Virus record (IMG/VR): IMGVR_UViG_3300034102_003182
Location: 1-23,295 of that record
Origin: a virus
Direction: 5' to 3' (one strand)
DNA: 23,295 nt
Shown: positions 7,195 through 15,083 of the stretch, one piece after another
How positions within the stretch are numbered: position 1 is the stretch's first letter
How the letters are laid out: every line of letters starts with the position of its first letter
Notes under the pieces: generated by a model
Told to the model about the DNA's origin: nothing
Database searches by the model: none
The model's input: the letters and a program-made list of their open reading frames with translations, nothing else
Made by a program: the position numbers and the translations under genes

Positions 7195-7477
7195 TGGTTA
7201 GCTCCTTTATTAACTTTGGTGCAGCCTCAACTTGGCTGGTCATGGTTTCGATTTTAGTGCGTAGCTCAGAAGTTTCCTTCTCATAAACGGCCTTCAATAC
7301 AAATCCGGCAAACAATGACAGATCTTGCAAGCAGGTGTCGCATAGGTAAGCTCCGCGGTTGGTTCCGCTGATCATGCCTAAGTCCCAAAGGTTGTTTACG
7401 TTTGAGCAGGCAAGGCAAACACCTGGGTATGGCGCTCCGGCCTGATAAAAGCGGTAGCTCTTGTTGAATACGTTCAT
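7007..7477 (-). CDS. Zinc-ribbon-like protein of unknown function
   Basis: 156 residues starting at an ATG that overlaps the terminase stop (TAATG). The N-terminus has CLAC (residues 21-24) and CDTC (46-49), a C-x2-C-x21-C-x2-C arrangement expected to bind zinc. A helix follows (ELRTKIETMTSQVEAAPKLI). The last 62 residues, rich in Ser/Lys/Thr/Gly, are exactly the part that overlaps the next gene in another frame and look disordered. Proteins with this layout are known near terminase genes in actinobacterial phages, but I cannot name the family. A DNA- or terminase-binding role is a guess from location. Confidence 0.7.
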   Translation of the reverse strand: MNVFNKSYRFYQAGAPYPGVCLACSNVNNLWDLGMISGTNRGAYLCDTCLQDLSLFAGFVLKAVYEKETSELRTKIETMTSQVEAAPKLIKELTNDINSLLGEFVTSLASVTVPSKPVQSQSSKADAGSTEGISGSTKKSSKGSAKTSEPSTESAE

Positions 7478-9015
7478 TATTGTCCTTCCAGAGACCTTAC
7501 GTCTGAGGCACCTTTCCAGCTGGATCCCCAGTCGTCGCTGTCATCAACGTCTCCAAGGGGCACAACAGGTGCAAATGCATCAGAAAAAGCATTATGAAAT
7601 TGTGTCCTGTCAGTAGGCAACTCGGTATTGTTGGGCGCTAGATCCGCCATAAACGTCATTGCATACTTAAGAGCATCATAGCAGTGATTGTCCTTGTCTC
7701 GGATATCTTCTAGCTTGTTATTCTGCTCTGCTACCTTAACACTAGCCCACTTCTTCCATTTAAGCTTAGGCAACTCGGCAATTAAATGGGGGCAATCGTC
7801 CGTGATCATTAGGTGGGGACGCTTGCTTTTCTTGTTAAGTTTCATGTACTGGCGAATGCGCTCAAGGCCAATTCGCCTATCAGTAGGGATCATGTCCACG
7901 GCAATAAAGATCCCGTGCTTCTGATACTCCTGCAATATAGAAGTACCGGTGTGCTCCTTGGTCTGCTTTATAGCCGGATCTCCCGTGGTTAGCCAAACCT
8001 TTGTACCAGCTTCTGCCTCGATCTCCCGGGTGATCTTATTGACAATAACGGCGTGCTCGGCCACGTTAAGCTTGGCTTGGTAATGCTCCCTAAACACAGT
8101 TACGTTGTTATCTTCATCTACGGCCATCCATAGCCAGACCGTGGGGTTGGTGTAGCCTGAGTCCATAGTGCGAATAATGCGGTGCTCTGGTCCGGGCTTA
8201 AACTCGCCTTTAGGAATACAGTGTGTAGCTGGGTTAAAGTCAGGGAAGACAGCGCCACCAAGGTGGACATACTGACCCTTGCTACGGATGATCCGTTCTT
8301 CCTCGGGCAGCATGTCTAGGAACTTGGCAATGGCCTCACGGGACAGGGTAGGGTTGTCAGCCATTTCAGCCTCAACAATACCAATGGCTTTCTGGCCCTC
8401 CTTGGCTGGGACGTAGATATCGTCAAAGATCCATTCCATACCCTGAACCGGGGTCTGAGACATCCACCAAACACCGCCAGTATCTACTAGACGGGCCAAA
8501 CACTCCTGAAATACTGACTTAGGGCACTCCTCGTCAAAGTGGATAAAGTGCCTAGAGGATCCAGCGAACTTATCTAGATCCTGATCCTGGGACATAAACT
8601 CCACAAAGGAGCCATTGTTTAGCGTAAGAACGTGGCGCTCTCGAGAATAGCTCTGTTCCCAGGATCCGTTGATCAGATAGGTCTTTGGAAGCCATTGTTT
8701 ATAAAGAGGTAGGATGATCTTGTCTACACCGTTTAGAAAGTCAACGGCAACAACTCGTCCTCGTATGGGTTCCTCGGGGGTCTTGCGAAACGGATGTGAA
8801 TGGGTAAGCCACCATATTGCTTCGATAGTAGAACCAAGTGACTTACCAGATCGGTTTCCTCCGATATAGAGTCGATCAGGATTTGGATCGTTGTGGAAAA
8901 GTCGCTGTTTTTCACTAGGTATGTAATCGTATAGATTTGGTTGGTGTGATGCTTCTTGGAGGCCTTCACCAAGCCTCCTAAGCGCTTCTGAGAAATCAAT
9001 ATCGTCCCTAGCCAT
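7477..9015 (-). CDS. terL: Terminase large subunit
   Basis: 512 residues, the normal length. The ATPase domain has Walker A GGNRSGKS (residues 52-59) and Walker B with catalytic acid FIHFDEE (D161, E162, E163). The C-terminal RNase-H-like nuclease has the expected acids: D285 in RTMDSGYTNP, D346 in TTGDPAIK and D447 in DNHCYDALKYA. It packages phage DNA into the head through the portal and cuts concatemers. The start ATG overlaps the end of the resolvase-like gene by 8 nt. A separate small terminase subunit is not recognisable next to it, where one would normally be expected. Confidence 0.95.
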   Translation of the reverse strand: MARDDIDFSEALRRLGEGLQEASHQPNLYDYIPSEKQRLFHNDPNPDRLYIGGNRSGKSLGSTIEAIWWLTHSHPFRKTPEEPIRGRVVAVDFLNGVDKIILPLYKQWLPKTYLINGSWEQSYSRERHVLTLNNGSFVEFMSQDQDLDKFAGSSRHFIHFDEECPKSVFQECLARLVDTGGVWWMSQTPVQGMEWIFDDIYVPAKEGQKAIGIVEAEMADNPTLSREAIAKFLDMLPEEERIIRSKGQYVHLGGAVFPDFNPATHCIPKGEFKPGPEHRIIRTMDSGYTNPTVWLWMAVDEDNNVTVFREHYQAKLNVAEHAVIVNKITREIEAEAGTKVWLTTGDPAIKQTKEHTGTSILQEYQKHGIFIAVDMIPTDRRIGLERIRQYMKLNKKSKRPHLMITDDCPHLIAELPKLKWKKWASVKVAEQNNKLEDIRDKDNHCYDALKYAMTFMADLAPNNTELPTDRTQFHNAFSDAFAPVVPLGDVDDSDDWGSSWKGASDVRSLEGQ

Positions 9016-9457
9016 GAATCAATTTTACTAGCTCGGCTAGCGTTATTCTTACAAGCGTCTTGTCAGTAAGCTCAAGGTTAGTGCGGAGATAGATAAGATC
9101 TCCCAAATTTGCATAAGCCCACCAATCGCCAGCACGGGGATAGCCAACCCCAGCACGCTGAGTGACAAGGAAACCCAGGCGCCCATCGGCGTTTTTTCTT
9201 TCCTTTTCTGCTTCTTCATACCATTTACCTATCTGCTGGAAAGAGGCTTCCTTGGCAGACTTCCCGCCCTTGACCTCAAATACAATAAGACCGTAGCTTT
9301 CGCGAAGCCAAACATCGCCTTCATCATCTTGTCCCTTCAGAACGTTTCGGTGTGCTGCTAGCGGGCTATAGCCCACGGACAGCAGGTAGTTTCTTACAGC
9401 CGTTTCGGCTCGAGTGCCGATCTGCTTTGCTTTGCTCATTTCCGTCTCCCTGGCCAT
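9008..9457 (-). CDS. Holliday-junction-resolvase-like PD-(D/E)XK nuclease
   Basis: Using the ATG at 9457 the protein has 149 residues. The motifs are those of Hjc-like or restriction-like resolvases: GTRAETAVRNYL near the start (E18), DDEGDVW (D48) and FEVKGG (E61, K63), with a basic stretch between. It may trim or resolve branched DNA before packaging, consistent with its place just before terminase. Start choice: a -10-like TATATT ends 6 nt before the ATG at 9457, suggesting leaderless translation, while an ATG at 9439 has a good AGGGAG ribosome site. An upstream ATG at 9487 lacks such support and would overlap the divergent gene more. Both shorter starts keep the full catalytic core. Confidence 0.82.
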   Translation of the reverse strand: MARETEMSKAKQIGTRAETAVRNYLLSVGYSPLAAHRNVLKGQDDEGDVWLRESYGLIVFEVKGGKSAKEASFQQIGKWYEEAEKERKNADGRLGFLVTQRAGVGYPRAGDWWAYANLGDLIYLRTNLELTDKTLVRITLAELVKLIHG

Positions 9458-9472
9458 ATACTTAATATATGG
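9454..9472. promoter_or_regulatory. Palindromic divergent leaderless promoter
   Basis: The 19-nt CCATATACTTAATATATGG is a near-perfect palindrome (7-bp arms). On the plus strand TATACT (9457-9462) is followed by 6 nt and then ATG at 9469. On the minus strand TATATT (9469-9464) is followed by 6 nt and then ATG at 9457. Each start codon therefore lies where transcription should begin. The two promoters share the same bases, so polymerase could bind only one direction at a time. Confidence 0.55.
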
Positions 9473-10071
9473 TGTCTTCGTCTTCATTCTATGGTCCTAA
9501 AGAGACCGATGCTGCAATTGTTAACTCGTTTCATCTTAGTTCCGATGTTGACAAAAGCGCTATTTCGCAACACCACACGCTGGGTATTCAGGCAACTCAG
9601 GCTAGCCCCGGAGATCACAACCACGACGGCACAACCTCTAAGCGGATCCAGCTTGGCGATTTAGCTAGTAACTCAATCCCATTTACCGTAGCAGGCGGCA
9701 CCCTGGGCACTCAGCCAACTTTTACTGGAGCTCCACTATTTACTGGCAGCTACACCAAGATAGGCAACCTCTGCCATTTCCAAATTGACGTAGACATGGA
9801 CAACATAACCAGCTTTGGAACTGGTCAATACTACATGACCCTGCCATTCCCAGCTGAGCACAACTACCTGGTCAGCGATGGCTGTCTGCACGACATCTCA
9901 GCAAATGACCAATACTCTGTCATGGGTCACGTTGTAGCTGGATCAAGCGAGCTTCGTTTGCTTAGCATTGCCTCAAACGGGAAACACGTCCCTTTTACTC
10001 ACAACGTGCCAGTGACTCTTGCCGTGGCAGATAACTTTCACGTCGCAGGAACATACGAAATACAGCAGTAA
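9469..10071 (+). CDS. Tail fibre / receptor-binding protein with His-rich motif
   Basis: 200 residues. The N-terminal part contains SQHHTLGIQATQ followed by SPGDHNHDGTTSKRIQLGD, where H50 and H52 sit in a DHNHDG motif common in phage fibres, probably coordinating metal in a trimer. The C-terminal 130 residues are beta-rich (YTKIGNLCHFQIDVDM, QYYMTLPFPAEHNYLV) and resemble head domains of short fibres. There is no Shine-Dalgarno sequence; instead TATACT lies 6 nt before the ATG, arguing for a leaderless mRNA. It starts the plus-strand adhesin block, so it may be the base or first segment of the fibre. The function is inferred from motif and location. Confidence 0.7.
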   Translation: MVSSSSFYGPKETDAAIVNSFHLSSDVDKSAISQHHTLGIQATQASPGDHNHDGTTSKRIQLGDLASNSIPFTVAGGTLGTQPTFTGAPLFTGSYTKIGNLCHFQIDVDMDNITSFGTGQYYMTLPFPAEHNYLVSDGCLHDISANDQYSVMGHVVAGSSELRLLSIASNGKHVPFTHNVPVTLAVADNFHVAGTYEIQQ

Positions 10072-10089: not shown

Positions 10090-10503
10090 ATGCCTGTAGT
10101 AAATCTCATCCAACTTAGACGTGGTACCGCTGCACAGTGGACCTCAGCTAACCCGACTCTTTCAGCGGGTGAAGGTGGATTTGAAACTGACACTGGTAAA
10201 TTCAAACTAGGAAACGGTAGCCAAAGCTGGACAGCACTGAAGTATGCTGGCGGTGGCGGTATTGAAGTATCTGAGACTGCACCATCTAGCCCTGACCAGG
10301 GTGCTCTTTGGTTCAACTCAACCAACGGCATTACCTACATCCGCTACGATTCTTACTGGATTCAACTAAGTCCAGGAATTGCTGGTCCAGCAGGGGCAGC
10401 AGGAGCAACTGGAGCAACTGGAGCAACTGGAGCAACGGGACCAGCTGGATCAGACGCAAATACAGATGAACTATACGCAATTACACTTATGGGAGCTATC
10501 TAA
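10090..10503 (+). CDS. Collagen-like fibre stalk protein, cassette A
   Basis: 137 residues. Residues 5-50 (LIQLRRGTAAQWTSANPTLS, then GEGGFETDTGKFKLGNGSQSW) match the N-terminal domain type found in phage hyaluronidase and major tropism determinant proteins. A second small domain follows (APSSPDQGALWFNST to YDSYWIQL). Residues about 96-120 are Gly-X-Y triplets (GIAGPAGAAGATGATGATG), a collagen-like triple helix. The C-terminus ends in LMGAI. The codons for MGA (ATGGGAGC) also provide a ribosome site for the next gene, whose ATG overlaps this stop (TAATG). It probably forms a trimeric shaft. It is the counterpart of the gene at 11971. Confidence 0.75.
   Translation: MPVVNLIQLRRGTAAQWTSANPTLSAGEGGFETDTGKFKLGNGSQSWTALKYAGGGGIEVSETAPSSPDQGALWFNSTNGITYIRYDSYWIQLSPGIAGPAGAAGATGATGATGATGPAGSDANTDELYAITLMGAI
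10402..10437 (+). repeat. Tandem 9-bp repeat in the collagen-like region
   Basis: Four copies of GGAGCAACT (the last ends in G) encode GAT triplets of the collagen-like stalk. Near-identical in-frame units could change in number by slippage, altering shaft length without breaking the frame. Confidence 0.8.
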
Positions 10504-10808
10504 TGCCATCAACACCAAAAAACTTATTTCGTGGAGCTGCAACCACAACAACTTCAACTACTTTATACACGGTTCCTTCTGCAACCTCAACCGTAGTTAC
10601 GAACATCGTGGTTACAAACACTGCATCAAGTGCGGGTACTTTTACTCTTTCGCTAAACGATGTCTTGCTTGCTGACGCCGTAGCAGTAGGTGCAAAAGAC
10701 TCTGTTGTTCTTGACATTAAACAGGTCCTTGCTACTACGAACACAATCAAGGGCGGTGCTTCCGCAACTACAATCAACTTCCACATAGGAGGAGTTGAGA
10801 TTTCCTAA
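10503..10808 (+). CDS. Small beta-rich virion protein, cassette A
   Basis: 101 residues, Thr/Val/Ser-rich and almost certainly beta-sandwich. The key segment TTLYTVPSATSTVVTNIVV is shared with the gene at 12191 (TTLYTVPSAKQAVISTIVV), showing the two are homologous. It starts with ATG overlapping the stop of the stalk gene, with GGGAG 7 nt upstream, and its own stop overlaps the next ATG (TAATG). Similar small proteins occur beside fibre genes of aquatic phages, from memory. It may cap the stalk or link it to the glycine-rich adhesin. There is no enzyme motif. Confidence 0.7.
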   Translation: MPSTPKNLFRGAATTTTSTTLYTVPSATSTVVTNIVVTNTASSAGTFTLSLNDVLLADAVAVGAKDSVVLDIKQVLATTNTIKGGASATTINFHIGGVEIS

Positions 10809-11662
10809 TGGGAATTTATAAGTTTTCTGCTGCTGGTAGTTTTTTAACTGGTAAAACCGAATACAAATCCATGAAAGCAGGGTATGCCCCTGACATCCAA
10901 TACTTAGTTATCGCCGGTGGTGGTGGTGGTGGATACGGTTGGAATAATGGTGCCGGTGGTGGCGGTGCCGGTGGATACCTTGCTGGATTTTCCAGTTCAT
11001 ACTCTTTAGGGGCAACTTACACCGTTAGCGTTGGTGCTGGCGGTGGTGCTGCATCAAATGGAAGCGCTTCTTTCCTATCACTTCAAGGTATTGCGGCAAT
11101 CGGCGGTGGATCTGGTGGTCCTGTTTCTCAAATTGCAGGCTCTCCGGGTCAAGCTGGTGGTTCTGGTGGTGGAGGAAGCCACGGTCAAACAACACAGCAG
11201 GGTGCCGGCGGTGCGGGAACCGCGGGGCAAGGAAATAACGGTGGAAACTCTTCTAGTGACGGTGGATTCAGCAACTGGTCTGGTGGTGGTGGCGGTGGAG
11301 CTGGCGCTACTGGATCGAATGCGTCTGGTGGAACAGGTGGAACTGGTGGAGTTGGACTAAGCTCATCTATTACTGGAACCGCTGTCTTTAGAGGCGGCGG
11401 TGGTGGTGGGGCTGGAGCCTCAACTGCTGCTGGAGGTAATGGTGGAGGAGCCGGCGGAGGCACTGCAAACGGCACTGCAAATACAGGCGGTGGCGGTCGC
11501 GGCGGAGGCGGGCTTGGCGGCTCTGGCATTGTTATTTTGCGTTACCCAGCTACATACACCATTACAGTTGGAGCTGGCTTGACTAGCTCAACCGCAACAG
11601 TTGGATCAGATAAGGTGACTACAATTACAGCCGGTACTGGAAACATAAGTTGGGCAGCATAA
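10808..11662 (+). CDS. Glycine-rich tail adhesin, cassette A
   Basis: 284 residues. After a 30-residue leader comes YLVIAGGGGGG, then long glycine runs broken by short variable segments, and GGSGIVILRY near the end. This start and finish are hallmarks of glycine-rich phage domains. In the gp38 adhesin of T-even-like phages such as S16, glycine-rich segments fold as packed polyglycine-II helices, with the loops between them binding the receptor. After the glycine core a short beta tail follows (TYTITVGAGLTSSTATVG). It is probably the receptor-contacting tip, and the inter-glycine loops would set host specificity. It is the counterpart of the gene at 12530. Confidence 0.72.
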   Translation: MGIYKFSAAGSFLTGKTEYKSMKAGYAPDIQYLVIAGGGGGGYGWNNGAGGGGAGGYLAGFSSSYSLGATYTVSVGAGGGAASNGSASFLSLQGIAAIGGGSGGPVSQIAGSPGQAGGSGGGGSHGQTTQQGAGGAGTAGQGNNGGNSSSDGGFSNWSGGGGGGAGATGSNASGGTGGTGGVGLSSSITGTAVFRGGGGGGAGASTAAGGNGGGAGGGTANGTANTGGGGRGGGGLGGSGIVILRYPATYTITVGAGLTSSTATVGSDKVTTITAGTGNISWAA

Positions 11663-11955
11663 TGGCTCATTACGCATTCTTAGATGAAAACAATGTTGTT
11701 ACTGAAGTTATCGTTGGAATTGACGAGACTGAGCTGATCGAAGGTAAGAGTCCTGAGTCTTGGTACGGGGACTTCCGTGGGCAGCGCTGTGTTAGAACTA
11801 GCTATAACGGAAACATCAGAAAGAATTACGCAGGTATCGGTTTTACATACGATGAAGAACGGGACGCTTTTATTGCACCTAGGCCTAGTGAAGACGCAAC
11901 CTTTGATGAGGAAACTTGTACTTGGATTTTGCCAGCCGAAACCCCAGCAAAGTAA
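11662..11955 (+). CDS. Small conserved fibre-associated protein, cassette A
   Basis: 97 residues. ATG at 11662 overlaps the stop of the adhesin gene (TAATG); a TTG 12 nt upstream is a less likely start. The sequence MAHYAFLDENNVVTEVIVG followed by RKNYAGIGFTYDEERDAFIA belongs to a small protein family I know from cyanophages and other aquatic phages, usually next to tail or structural genes, with no assigned function. It matches the gene at 13333 closely in this core, but ends at about ETCTWILPAE and lacks the last repeat (YYWDPEVDNW) present there, so it may be slightly truncated. Confidence 0.72.
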   Translation: MAHYAFLDENNVVTEVIVGIDETELIEGKSPESWYGDFRGQRCVRTSYNGNIRKNYAGIGFTYDEERDAFIAPRPSEDATFDEETCTWILPAETPAK

Positions 11956-12529: not shown

Positions 12530-13336
12530 ATGGCAATCCAAAGATTAGCTAAATCTGGCATTAAGAACTTTGCCAGGTATAAAAACATGCTAATGGATGT
12601 TCCCACCGCCTTGGTTACTCAGGCTAGCGGTGGAACGATTGTTACATCTGGTGGATATAGATATCACACCTTTACAAGCTCAGGGACTTTTACTGTCACC
12701 GCAGGTGTTGGTAATGCTGAAGTGCTCATGATTGCTGGAGGTGGAGGTAAAAATGGTTCTTGGCACGGTGGTGGTGGTGCTGGCGGTCTTCTCATTCAGA
12801 CGCTCCCATTATTGCCAGGAAACTACACTGTTGGCATCGGCGCTGGTGGTAATGGTGCTAGCGGGCAAAACACAACATTTACAGGATTGACTACAGCCGT
12901 TGGTGGCGGTACAACCGGTACCTCTGGTGGTTCTGGTGGTGGCGGTGGATTCGGTAGCAGCCAAGGTGGCGGTGGTGGTGGAACCGCAGGTCAGGGATTT
13001 GCTGGTGGTAATGCAAACGCTAACAACGCTGGTGGCGGTGGTGGTGGATCTGCAGGTGGTGGTGGCACTAGCTACTTTGACGGAAGCACGCAAAACCCCG
13101 GTGGTGGTGGTGGTGCAACCACACTATCTACTTGGGCAACTGCTACAGGCACAGGAGTAAGCGGAGCTTACGCTGGTGGAGCTGGTGGTGGTGGACCAAC
13201 CTACGCTGCAGGTGGTGGTGGTGGTGGTGCAGGAAACCCTGGTGCCGCTAATACTGGTAGCGGTGGAGGCTCTTCAAGTAGCGGTTCACAAATCGGTGGT
13301 TCGGGGCTAGTAATTGTGAGGTATAACACCATATGA
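12530..13336 (+). CDS. Glycine-rich tail adhesin, cassette B
   Basis: 268 residues. After an N-terminal segment including YRYHTFTSSGTFTVTAGVG comes VLMIAGGGG and a glycine-rich core with many GGGG runs, ending in GGSGLVIVRYN. The end motif matches that of cassette A (GGSGIVILRY), and the spacing of glycine runs is similar, while the segments between runs differ. This is what is expected for two receptor-binding tips with different specificity. GTCTAGGAAAAAATG gives a modest ribosome site. The stop overlaps the next ATG (ATGA). Confidence 0.72.
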   Translation: MAIQRLAKSGIKNFARYKNMLMDVPTALVTQASGGTIVTSGGYRYHTFTSSGTFTVTAGVGNAEVLMIAGGGGKNGSWHGGGGAGGLLIQTLPLLPGNYTVGIGAGGNGASGQNTTFTGLTTAVGGGTTGTSGGSGGGGGFGSSQGGGGGGTAGQGFAGGNANANNAGGGGGGSAGGGGTSYFDGSTQNPGGGGGATTLSTWATATGTGVSGAYAGGAGGGGPTYAAGGGGGGAGNPGAANTGSGGGSSSSGSQIGGSGLVIVRYNTI

Positions 13337-13659
13337 GCCATTTTGCAGAAGTAGATGAAGACAACTACGTCACTCGAGTTTTAGTTGGAGACAACGAAAT
13401 GCCAAACGAAGGTTACGATTGGTTTGTAGAAACATTCGGGGGGCGCTGGATTCAAACATCTTACAACGCAAACTTTAGAAAAAACTTTGCTGGAATCGGC
13501 TTTACTTACGATGAAAATCTAGATGCTTTTATACCGCCAAAACCATTTAATAAATGGGTTTTAAATGAGCAGACTTGTCAGTGGGAAGCTCCAGTACCAA
13601 AGCCAGAAGGCAATTATTACTGGGATCCTGAAGTTGACAACTGGATCAAGCTTAACTAA
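13333..13659 (+). CDS. Small conserved fibre-associated protein, cassette B
   Basis: 108 residues, overlapping the adhesin gene by 4 nt. It is homologous to the product of 11662: HFAEVDEDNYVTRVLVGDNE, then RKNFAGIGFTYDENLDAFIP. It also has the two C-terminal units NEQTCQWEAPVPKPEG and YYWDPEVDNWIKLN, the usual ending of this family in aquatic phages, from memory. Its function is unknown; association with tail fibres is by consistent gene position. It is the last gene of the plus-strand fibre block, meeting the convergent gene that ends at 13675. Confidence 0.75.
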   Translation: MSHFAEVDEDNYVTRVLVGDNEMPNEGYDWFVETFGGRWIQTSYNANFRKNFAGIGFTYDENLDAFIPPKPFNKWVLNEQTCQWEAPVPKPEGNYYWDPEVDNWIKLN

Positions 13660-13674
13660 GTCAAAACAGCTAAA

Positions 13675-14379
13675 TCAAAACATCTTTCTATATCTAGATC
13701 GACCTAGTTTTGACGATGAGATGTCAAGCGAAATCGCCCCGAAATTGTACGTTTCTTTTTCGGTTGCGTAATGCACATCTAGTTCAAACTCTTCACGCTT
13801 AATAGGAATGTACTGCACAAAGGGCGTTCCCCTCTTAATTTCAATGGACCGCTTTCCTTCACCATGAACTAAAACTTGGTGATTCGCTGTGTGATACTGG
13901 TCACTGCGAATAATCCCAGGCAGAACACTAAAGTCGTTATTGAAGTGATAAAACAGCGGAAGTTGCAAAATTGAGTACCCCTTAGGGGCAATAATCTTCC
14001 ATGGGCATTCCGTCTTGAATACGAACTGAGTATTGGCTCCTTGAAACGAAGCAGTAGGAACGTGGTCAATAAACTGACTGTTAGGGTGAATGTCCCACTT
14101 GTATGGCAATCCCTCCCTGACTTCCCACTTGTACCCCGTAGTCTCAGGATCATACTCCAAGGTTGTGTCAGCCCACATTGGTAAGATGAAACCCTGTGAA
14201 AAGTAATCTGGGAAAGCTGGACACGATTTAGCGGTGTAAGAATTCATCTCTTTGTCGTGAAATGGTATCTCTTTCCACCATTTAGGATAGAAATGCTTAG
14301 CCGGTACAGGCCTTAGGTCTTCTATCATTTCAAGGCCAGGTACGGTTGATACAAATTTAATAACTGGTTTTTTACTCAT
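13675..14379 (-). CDS. Conserved aquatic-phage protein of unknown function
   Basis: 234 residues from ATG at 14379, which has TAGGAGAC upstream; a longer in-frame ATG at 14397 lies before the ribosome site and is unlikely. The sequence has VPAKHFYPKWWKEIPF, KSCPAFPDYFSQGFILPMW, PKGYSILQLPLFYHFNNDF and RGTPFVQYIPIKREEFEL. I recognise this combination as a protein carried by many cyanophages and other aquatic phages, with no known function. It is a lone minus-strand gene between plus-strand blocks. Conserved His, Cys and acidic residues could bind metal, but no enzyme family is apparent. Its orientation suggests independent insertion as a single-gene cargo. Confidence 0.72.
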   Translation of the reverse strand: MSKKPVIKFVSTVPGLEMIEDLRPVPAKHFYPKWWKEIPFHDKEMNSYTAKSCPAFPDYFSQGFILPMWADTTLEYDPETTGYKWEVREGLPYKWDIHPNSQFIDHVPTASFQGANTQFVFKTECPWKIIAPKGYSILQLPLFYHFNNDFSVLPGIIRSDQYHTANHQVLVHGEGKRSIEIKRGTPFVQYIPIKREEFELDVHYATEKETYNFGAISLDISSSKLGRSRYRKMF

Positions 14380-14459: not shown

Positions 14460-15083
14460 ATGCGAACTAAACCTCAGATGCCCCTTGATGGCAAATTCAA
14501 GAAAGACTGGAAGGTAACCAGTAGCTATGGGTACCGTGTGCATCCTATAGAGGGGTACAAAAAACATCATAATGGCGTAGACCTTTGGGGCCCAAAGGCC
14601 AAGATCTGGAACGAAGCCTGGCACGATGGCACTGTTATTGCAGCCGGCACTTCTAAGCTAAAGAACGCTGACGGCTCCCTTGGTGGAGTTGGATGGTACG
14701 TAGACATTAGATCAAAGATCAATGGCGAATGGTACGTAACCCGCTATGCCCACATGGTTGAGAACTCTCTCACCGTTACCAAGGGTGAGAAGGTCAAAGC
14801 TGGAACAAGGCTTGGCATCATGGGCAACACTGGCGCATCTGCCGGTAGACACCTACATTTCGAGATTTGCAAGGGCAAGGTTCACCGCTGGACATCAGAT
14901 GGTAAGGGCTTTGTAGATCCACTAAAGTTTGTTAGAGCAACTATTGAACAATGGGAGCTAAAGCAATCAGTAAACCTGGCTACACCTGATACGGGTGAAG
15001 TGTTGCCAGCTCCGGTGCATGGGCCGGAGAAAAAAGTTGAGACGGTTAAACCAGCTGTTAATACTAAAAAGACAAGGAAATAA
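14460..15083 (+). CDS. M23-family peptidase endolysin
   Basis: 207 residues. The LytM/M23 zinc sites are visible: HNGVD (H37, D41), the catalytic H98 in RYAHMV and HLHFE (H131, H133). This is a D,L-endopeptidase that cuts peptidoglycan cross-bridges. No signal peptide or transmembrane segment is present, so it depends on a holin, which follows 5 bp downstream. The last about 40 residues are Pro/Lys/Thr-rich and may act as a basic cell-wall-binding tail or linker. It could alternatively be a virion-associated lysin, but the adjacent holin argues for lysis. Confidence 0.88.
   Translation: MRTKPQMPLDGKFKKDWKVTSSYGYRVHPIEGYKKHHNGVDLWGPKAKIWNEAWHDGTVIAAGTSKLKNADGSLGGVGWYVDIRSKINGEWYVTRYAHMVENSLTVTKGEKVKAGTRLGIMGNTGASAGRHLHFEICKGKVHRWTSDGKGFVDPLKFVRATIEQWELKQSVNLATPDTGEVLPAPVHGPEKKVETVKPAVNTKKTRK

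Follow-up and report, generated by a model that had tools for sequence, protein, structure and literature searches.

A probable bidirectional promoter with back-to-back −10 elements at a divergent RusA/fibre junction in a virus clade

Prokaryotic bidirectional promoters, as described by the Grainger laboratory (PMC12825309, PMC10268837), fire from opposite-strand start sites placed around overlapping or abutting −10 elements, with no need for a −35 element. Five such promoters tested in E. coli showed little or no competition between directions at basal activity (PMC12825309), and one direction is inhibited when the other is strongly activated. Descriptions of these promoters so far come mainly from mapping start sites in a few bacteria. 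A second relevant class is the leaderless promoter of Actinobacteria, in which TANNNT precedes the ATG by 6–7 nt without a Shine-Dalgarno (SD) sequence or a −35 element (PMC3160421, PMC3898074). In mycobacteria, CGN is preferred before the hexamer and an extended −10 is linked to stronger promoters, and M. tuberculosis has no −35 conservation (PMC3898074).

The junction analysed here combines features of both classes. It shares with the Grainger promoters the opposing −10 elements and the dispensable −35, but its predicted start sites are 12 bp apart in the sequence under study and 15 bp apart in the main clade of relatives, whereas theirs favour spacings of 10, 18 or 23. It further differs in that one output is predicted to be leaderless, that the start codon supplies a T of the opposing element, and that it lies in a phage and is conserved across many lineages. 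With the actinobacterial leaderless promoters it shares the TANNNT spacing, the missing SD and −35 and, in the main clade, CGN before the hexamer; unlike them, it belongs to a virus and to a divergent junction, where an opposing promoter is laid over it. Judged by terminase, the nearest isolates are Arthrobacter phage Jasmine and its relatives (46% amino acid identity). They carry a homologous terminase gene with the portal and major head protein genes after it, but in these phages same-strand small genes precede the terminase and no divergent RusA/fibre junction lies beside it.

The junction, its gene arms and its relatives

The window, that is, the whole stretch of DNA analysed, is virus record IMGVR_UViG_3300034102_003182 (23,295 bases). 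An earlier note had read the bases at 9454-9472 as a palindromic promoter with a TANNNT-N6-ATG arrangement on each strand, and both readings match the window sequence exactly. The two ATGs are separated by 11 nt, and the A of each ATG lies within the hexamer of the other reading. TANNNT-N6-ATG occurs 12 times in the window against 10.6 expected; as this count is not above chance, single-sequence evidence was set aside. The junction feature is near chance from the window alone, and its meaning comes from comparison with relatives.

Two viral-contig scans yielded 37 RusA loci and 80 terminase loci, which collapse to 57 distinct junctions with the window counted, giving 56 relatives. A tree was built on RusA and TerL using a quick search. 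Minus-strand −10 registers were numbered from the T that pairs with the first base of the plus ATG: 0 (the window type), 3 (the main clade) and 6.

Leftward of the RusA-like gene lie terminase, portal and major head protein genes (PHROG/Pfam), and the 290-aa ORF that separates the portal gene from the head protein gene probably encodes the scaffold, judged by position only. The plus gene, whose weak PHROG matches are all to families of unknown function, is a probable tail-fibre-type protein gene; the series that it heads also includes an Mtd_N-domain protein (the next gene), an M23 peptidase and fibre-like proteins rich in glycine. By their gene content, both arms seem to serve late morphogenesis or lysis; further to the right, the minus strand carries replication genes. 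RusA relatives occur in Arthrobacter, Propionibacterium and Bifidobacterium phages, and these, together with the terminase relatives, make an actinobacterial host likely; we infer host and sigma factor solely from such phage relatives, and a bacterial-genome scan by terminase found no relative.

Table 1. Features of the junction and of the adjoining genes in the window (coordinates in window positions).
Feature	Position	Strand	Basis
Plus reading: TATACT, N6, ATG	TATACT 9457-9462; ATG 9469-9471	+	Window sequence
Minus reading: TATATT, N6, ATG	TATATT 9469-9464; ATG 9457-9455	-	Window sequence
Plus −10 element TATACT	9457..9462	+	TANNNT before ATG in 57/57 distinct junctions
Predicted minus −10 element TATATT, register 0; first T pairs with A of plus ATG	9464..9469	-	TANNNT in 5/5 of the window's clade
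Plus gene, 200 aa, predicted leaderless start, first gene of fibre/lysin arm	9469..10071	+	TANNNT before ATG in 57/57 and no SD in 53/57 junctions
RusA-like Holliday junction resolvase, first gene of packaging/head arm	9008..9439	-	phrog_244, E=1.4e-16; start codon and SD conserved
SD AGGGAG of RusA-like gene	9446..9451	-	SD-like motif 4-10 nt before start in 57/57 junctions
Minus ATG of the earlier note, judged incidental	9455..9457	-	In frame with RusA at this distance in the window alone
Terminase large subunit, next gene of minus operon	7477..9015	-	phrog_2, Pfam Terminase_6N

Conservation of the two −10 elements

Once relatives are compared, the plus half of the junction is far beyond chance. 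TANNNT stands before the plus ATG in every distinct junction, at a spacing of 6 nt in 50 and 7 nt in 7, and its T, A and final T (columns 12, 11 and 7) show no change on the RusA and TerL tree. An SD is absent before the plus start in 53/57 junctions, the remaining four having a weak GGTG or GTGA. TANNNT 6–7 nt before a start that has no SD is the leaderless layout known from Actinobacteria, and the plus gene is accordingly annotated with a predicted leaderless start at 9469. A 24-member clade carries CGNTANNNT on the plus side in most rows, which fits the mycobacterial CGN preference. Shared −35 elements were looked for and rejected: there was no clear match, the best hexamers mostly reaching 3/6, close to shuffled sequence.

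On the minus strand, 22 of the 30 thinned junctions carry TANNNT in register 0 or 3, where spacer shuffling gives 5.5 (p=0.0002). This p-value, like the others given here, is optimistic, since the relatives are not statistically independent, a problem that the tree lessens without abolishing. Among other leaderless-like starts, 3 of 22 showed the same arrangement (Fisher p=2e-5); these controls were picked by pattern and include the junction's own minus reading and some doubtful starts. Register 0 alone, the assigned register in eight rows overall, gave a weaker excess (8 versus 3.7 expected, p=0.02). Register 6 stood at chance (9 versus 8.7 expected), two of its three letters being already dictated by the plus −10, and this register, which corresponds to an 18-bp spacing, was rejected as the main arrangement. 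The minus −10 steps by 3 bp between clades (registers 0, 3 and 6; the related loci L087, L040 and L047 are examples) while the plus spacing stays fixed.

The cleanest evidence for the minus −10 comes from the 24-member clade, which has full tree support. There, minus T3, A4 and T8 never vary and G1 is present in 23/24, while any of the four bases occurs at positions 5 and 6; the element is nearly always TGNTANNNT, an extended −10 whose first T complements the A of the plus ATG. On the tree, positions 3 and 4 of the register-3 rows underwent no change, and positions 5 and 6 underwent nine each. The window's own clade, in which the minus −10 rests on few sequences (five members), carries TATATT, TAAGAT, TACCAT, TACAAT and TACTAT in register 0, with positions 1 and 5 fixed and positions 2-4 varying. 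In 6/7 members of the most distant clade, minus TANNNT is absent here, a gap which argues that two-way use is not universal among relatives. Taken together, −10 elements on both strands that share or abut the same bases are present in the window, in 22 of the 30 thinned junctions and in the 24-member clade, and an opposing minus-strand −10 is thus supported by the comparison.

Start of the RusA-like gene and symmetry of the site

The proposal of two divergent leaderless genes holds for the plus gene, by its TANNNT and missing SD, and fails for the minus gene. An ATG at the 9457 position occurs in 0/56 relatives, an in-frame stop lies within the scanned stretch upstream of RusA in 35/57 junctions, and in 50/57 a stop or the limit of the scan is reached upstream of 9439 without any alternative in-frame start. 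The start codon at the 9439 position is kept in every relative, each time with an SD, and a minus gene starting at 9439 is among the outcomes that the earlier note had itself named as refuting its reading. No conserved start follows the minus TANNNT by 6–7 nt without an SD; conservation of the 9439 start and its SD, with an unconserved ATG at 9457, argues instead for a leadered minus gene with a leader of about 18 nt and a true start at 9439. Both the leaderless start at 9457 and a longer minus ORF from 9487 were rejected as not conserved.

Nor did the palindrome survive as a functional unit. The 19-bp dyad is imperfect in the window (8/9 pairs), where comparable dyads number five against 2.7 simulated, and its symmetry falls to 6/9 pairs in one near relative and to 1-4/9 in the other ten checked.

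A probable shared promoter weighed against its alternatives

We consider it probable that the junction is a conserved bidirectional promoter with back-to-back −10 elements, giving one leaderless and one leadered output and expressing the two arms together; the plus element in all 57 junctions and the minus register 0 or 3 in 22/30 support the shared two-way promoter that the earlier note had suggested. The site would be of the housekeeping-sigma type, with both −10 elements within about 13 bp. Rightward, polymerase would start at or near the A of the ATG at 9469 and produce a leaderless mRNA for the fibre arm. Leftward, it would use TATATT, start at about 9457 and produce an mRNA in which RusA is translated from 9439 by way of the leader SD (9451-9446) and which runs on into the terminase, portal and capsid genes. 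The site could be melted by no more than one polymerase at a time, but successive initiations would serve both directions, so that the late arms are co-expressed. Little competition at basal activity in the E. coli examples favours such coordinate expression of two late arms, and competition may arise at high late activity.

A different account keeps only a one-way leaderless plus promoter, with the minus operon transcribed from another promoter, such as one inside the plus gene, and TATATT a by-product of an AT-rich −10 element and an ATG. Register 0 indeed needs two free letters only, its T0 being fixed by the ATG, its excess is modest, and most of the most distant clade has no minus element. 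This account is nevertheless unlikely: against it stand the 24-member clade, with its invariant and mostly extended −10 whose middle letters vary, and the two fixed positions among varied neighbours in the window's clade, and RusA heads an operon with a conserved SD downstream of the predicted minus start in most relatives. Instead of a promoter pair, the dyad could also be an operator bound by a repressor or an activator, as its near-perfect two-fold symmetry in the window would suggest. We give this very little credence and rejected the palindrome as an operator, since the window holds no second copy at ≤3 mismatches apart from its own complement, and the −10 letters persist in relatives while the symmetry is lost.

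The earlier note had gone further and raised a possible packaging-versus-fibre switch between two leaderless genes, with initiation in only one direction at once. That polymerases exclude one another sterically at such promoters is established, and in this one sequence a transcript from 9457 would begin with an AUG in the RusA frame; but all the relatives lack an ATG at that position, the frame is stopped in most junctions, and the 9439 start with its SD is universal. Exclusion without feedback gives no stable state, no regulator site or other operator evidence for a switch was found, the dyad is not conserved, and basal competition was absent in the tested E. coli promoters. Both arms appear late and structural and would be needed together, which makes co-expression more likely than toggling, and the switch is most improbable. 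More speculative, and in our view doubtful, is an extension of the two-way promoter to a large actinophage-like virus clade, in which the start codon of the fibre gene would also contribute to the opposing promoter (as the T of TGN or TANNNT) and the element of about 13 bp would set the ratio of packaging/head to fibre/lysis transcripts through polymerase competition when late activity is high, coupled to the balance of leaderless versus SD-led translation in the host.

Bidirectional promoters and leaderless starts are both known ingredients, and as a new example their combination is well supported by the sequence comparison. What would be new is that leaderless and SD-led outputs share bases and that the arrangement has been conserved over the long term in a virus clade; the literature searched, mostly without subscription papers, contained no phage example. 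More than 50 related virus sequences provide evolutionary evidence of selection on both directions, with key letters frozen and the letters between them drifting. The junction would also offer a compact natural case in which one set of bases yields both a leaderless and a leadered mRNA. Polymerase competition could be tested on it, and it can help to correct gene starts in uncultured actinophages.

Several other starts in the window bear similar motifs. A second divergent pair comprises the M23 peptidase gene at 14460 (+), which has TACAAT-N6-ATG, no SD and is of the leaderless type, and a gene at 14379 (-) that has an SD; their possible −10 elements lie well apart and do not overlap. The terminase start at 9015 (9013-9027, minus strand) has TAAAAT-N6-ATG without an SD, inside the end of RusA, and many, though not all, relatives that were checked keep TANNNT there. 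The motif may mark an internal leaderless promoter, or may simply reflect coding conservation with translational coupling. Within the fibre region, TANNNT-N7-ATG at 10090 and 11971 (+; TAGAAT and TACAAT) suggests separate leaderless promoters. Two glycine-rich fibre-like genes in the same region (10808-11662 and 12530-13336) are each followed by a similar small gene (11650-11955 and 13333-13659), and the two pairs look like a duplicated fibre cassette.
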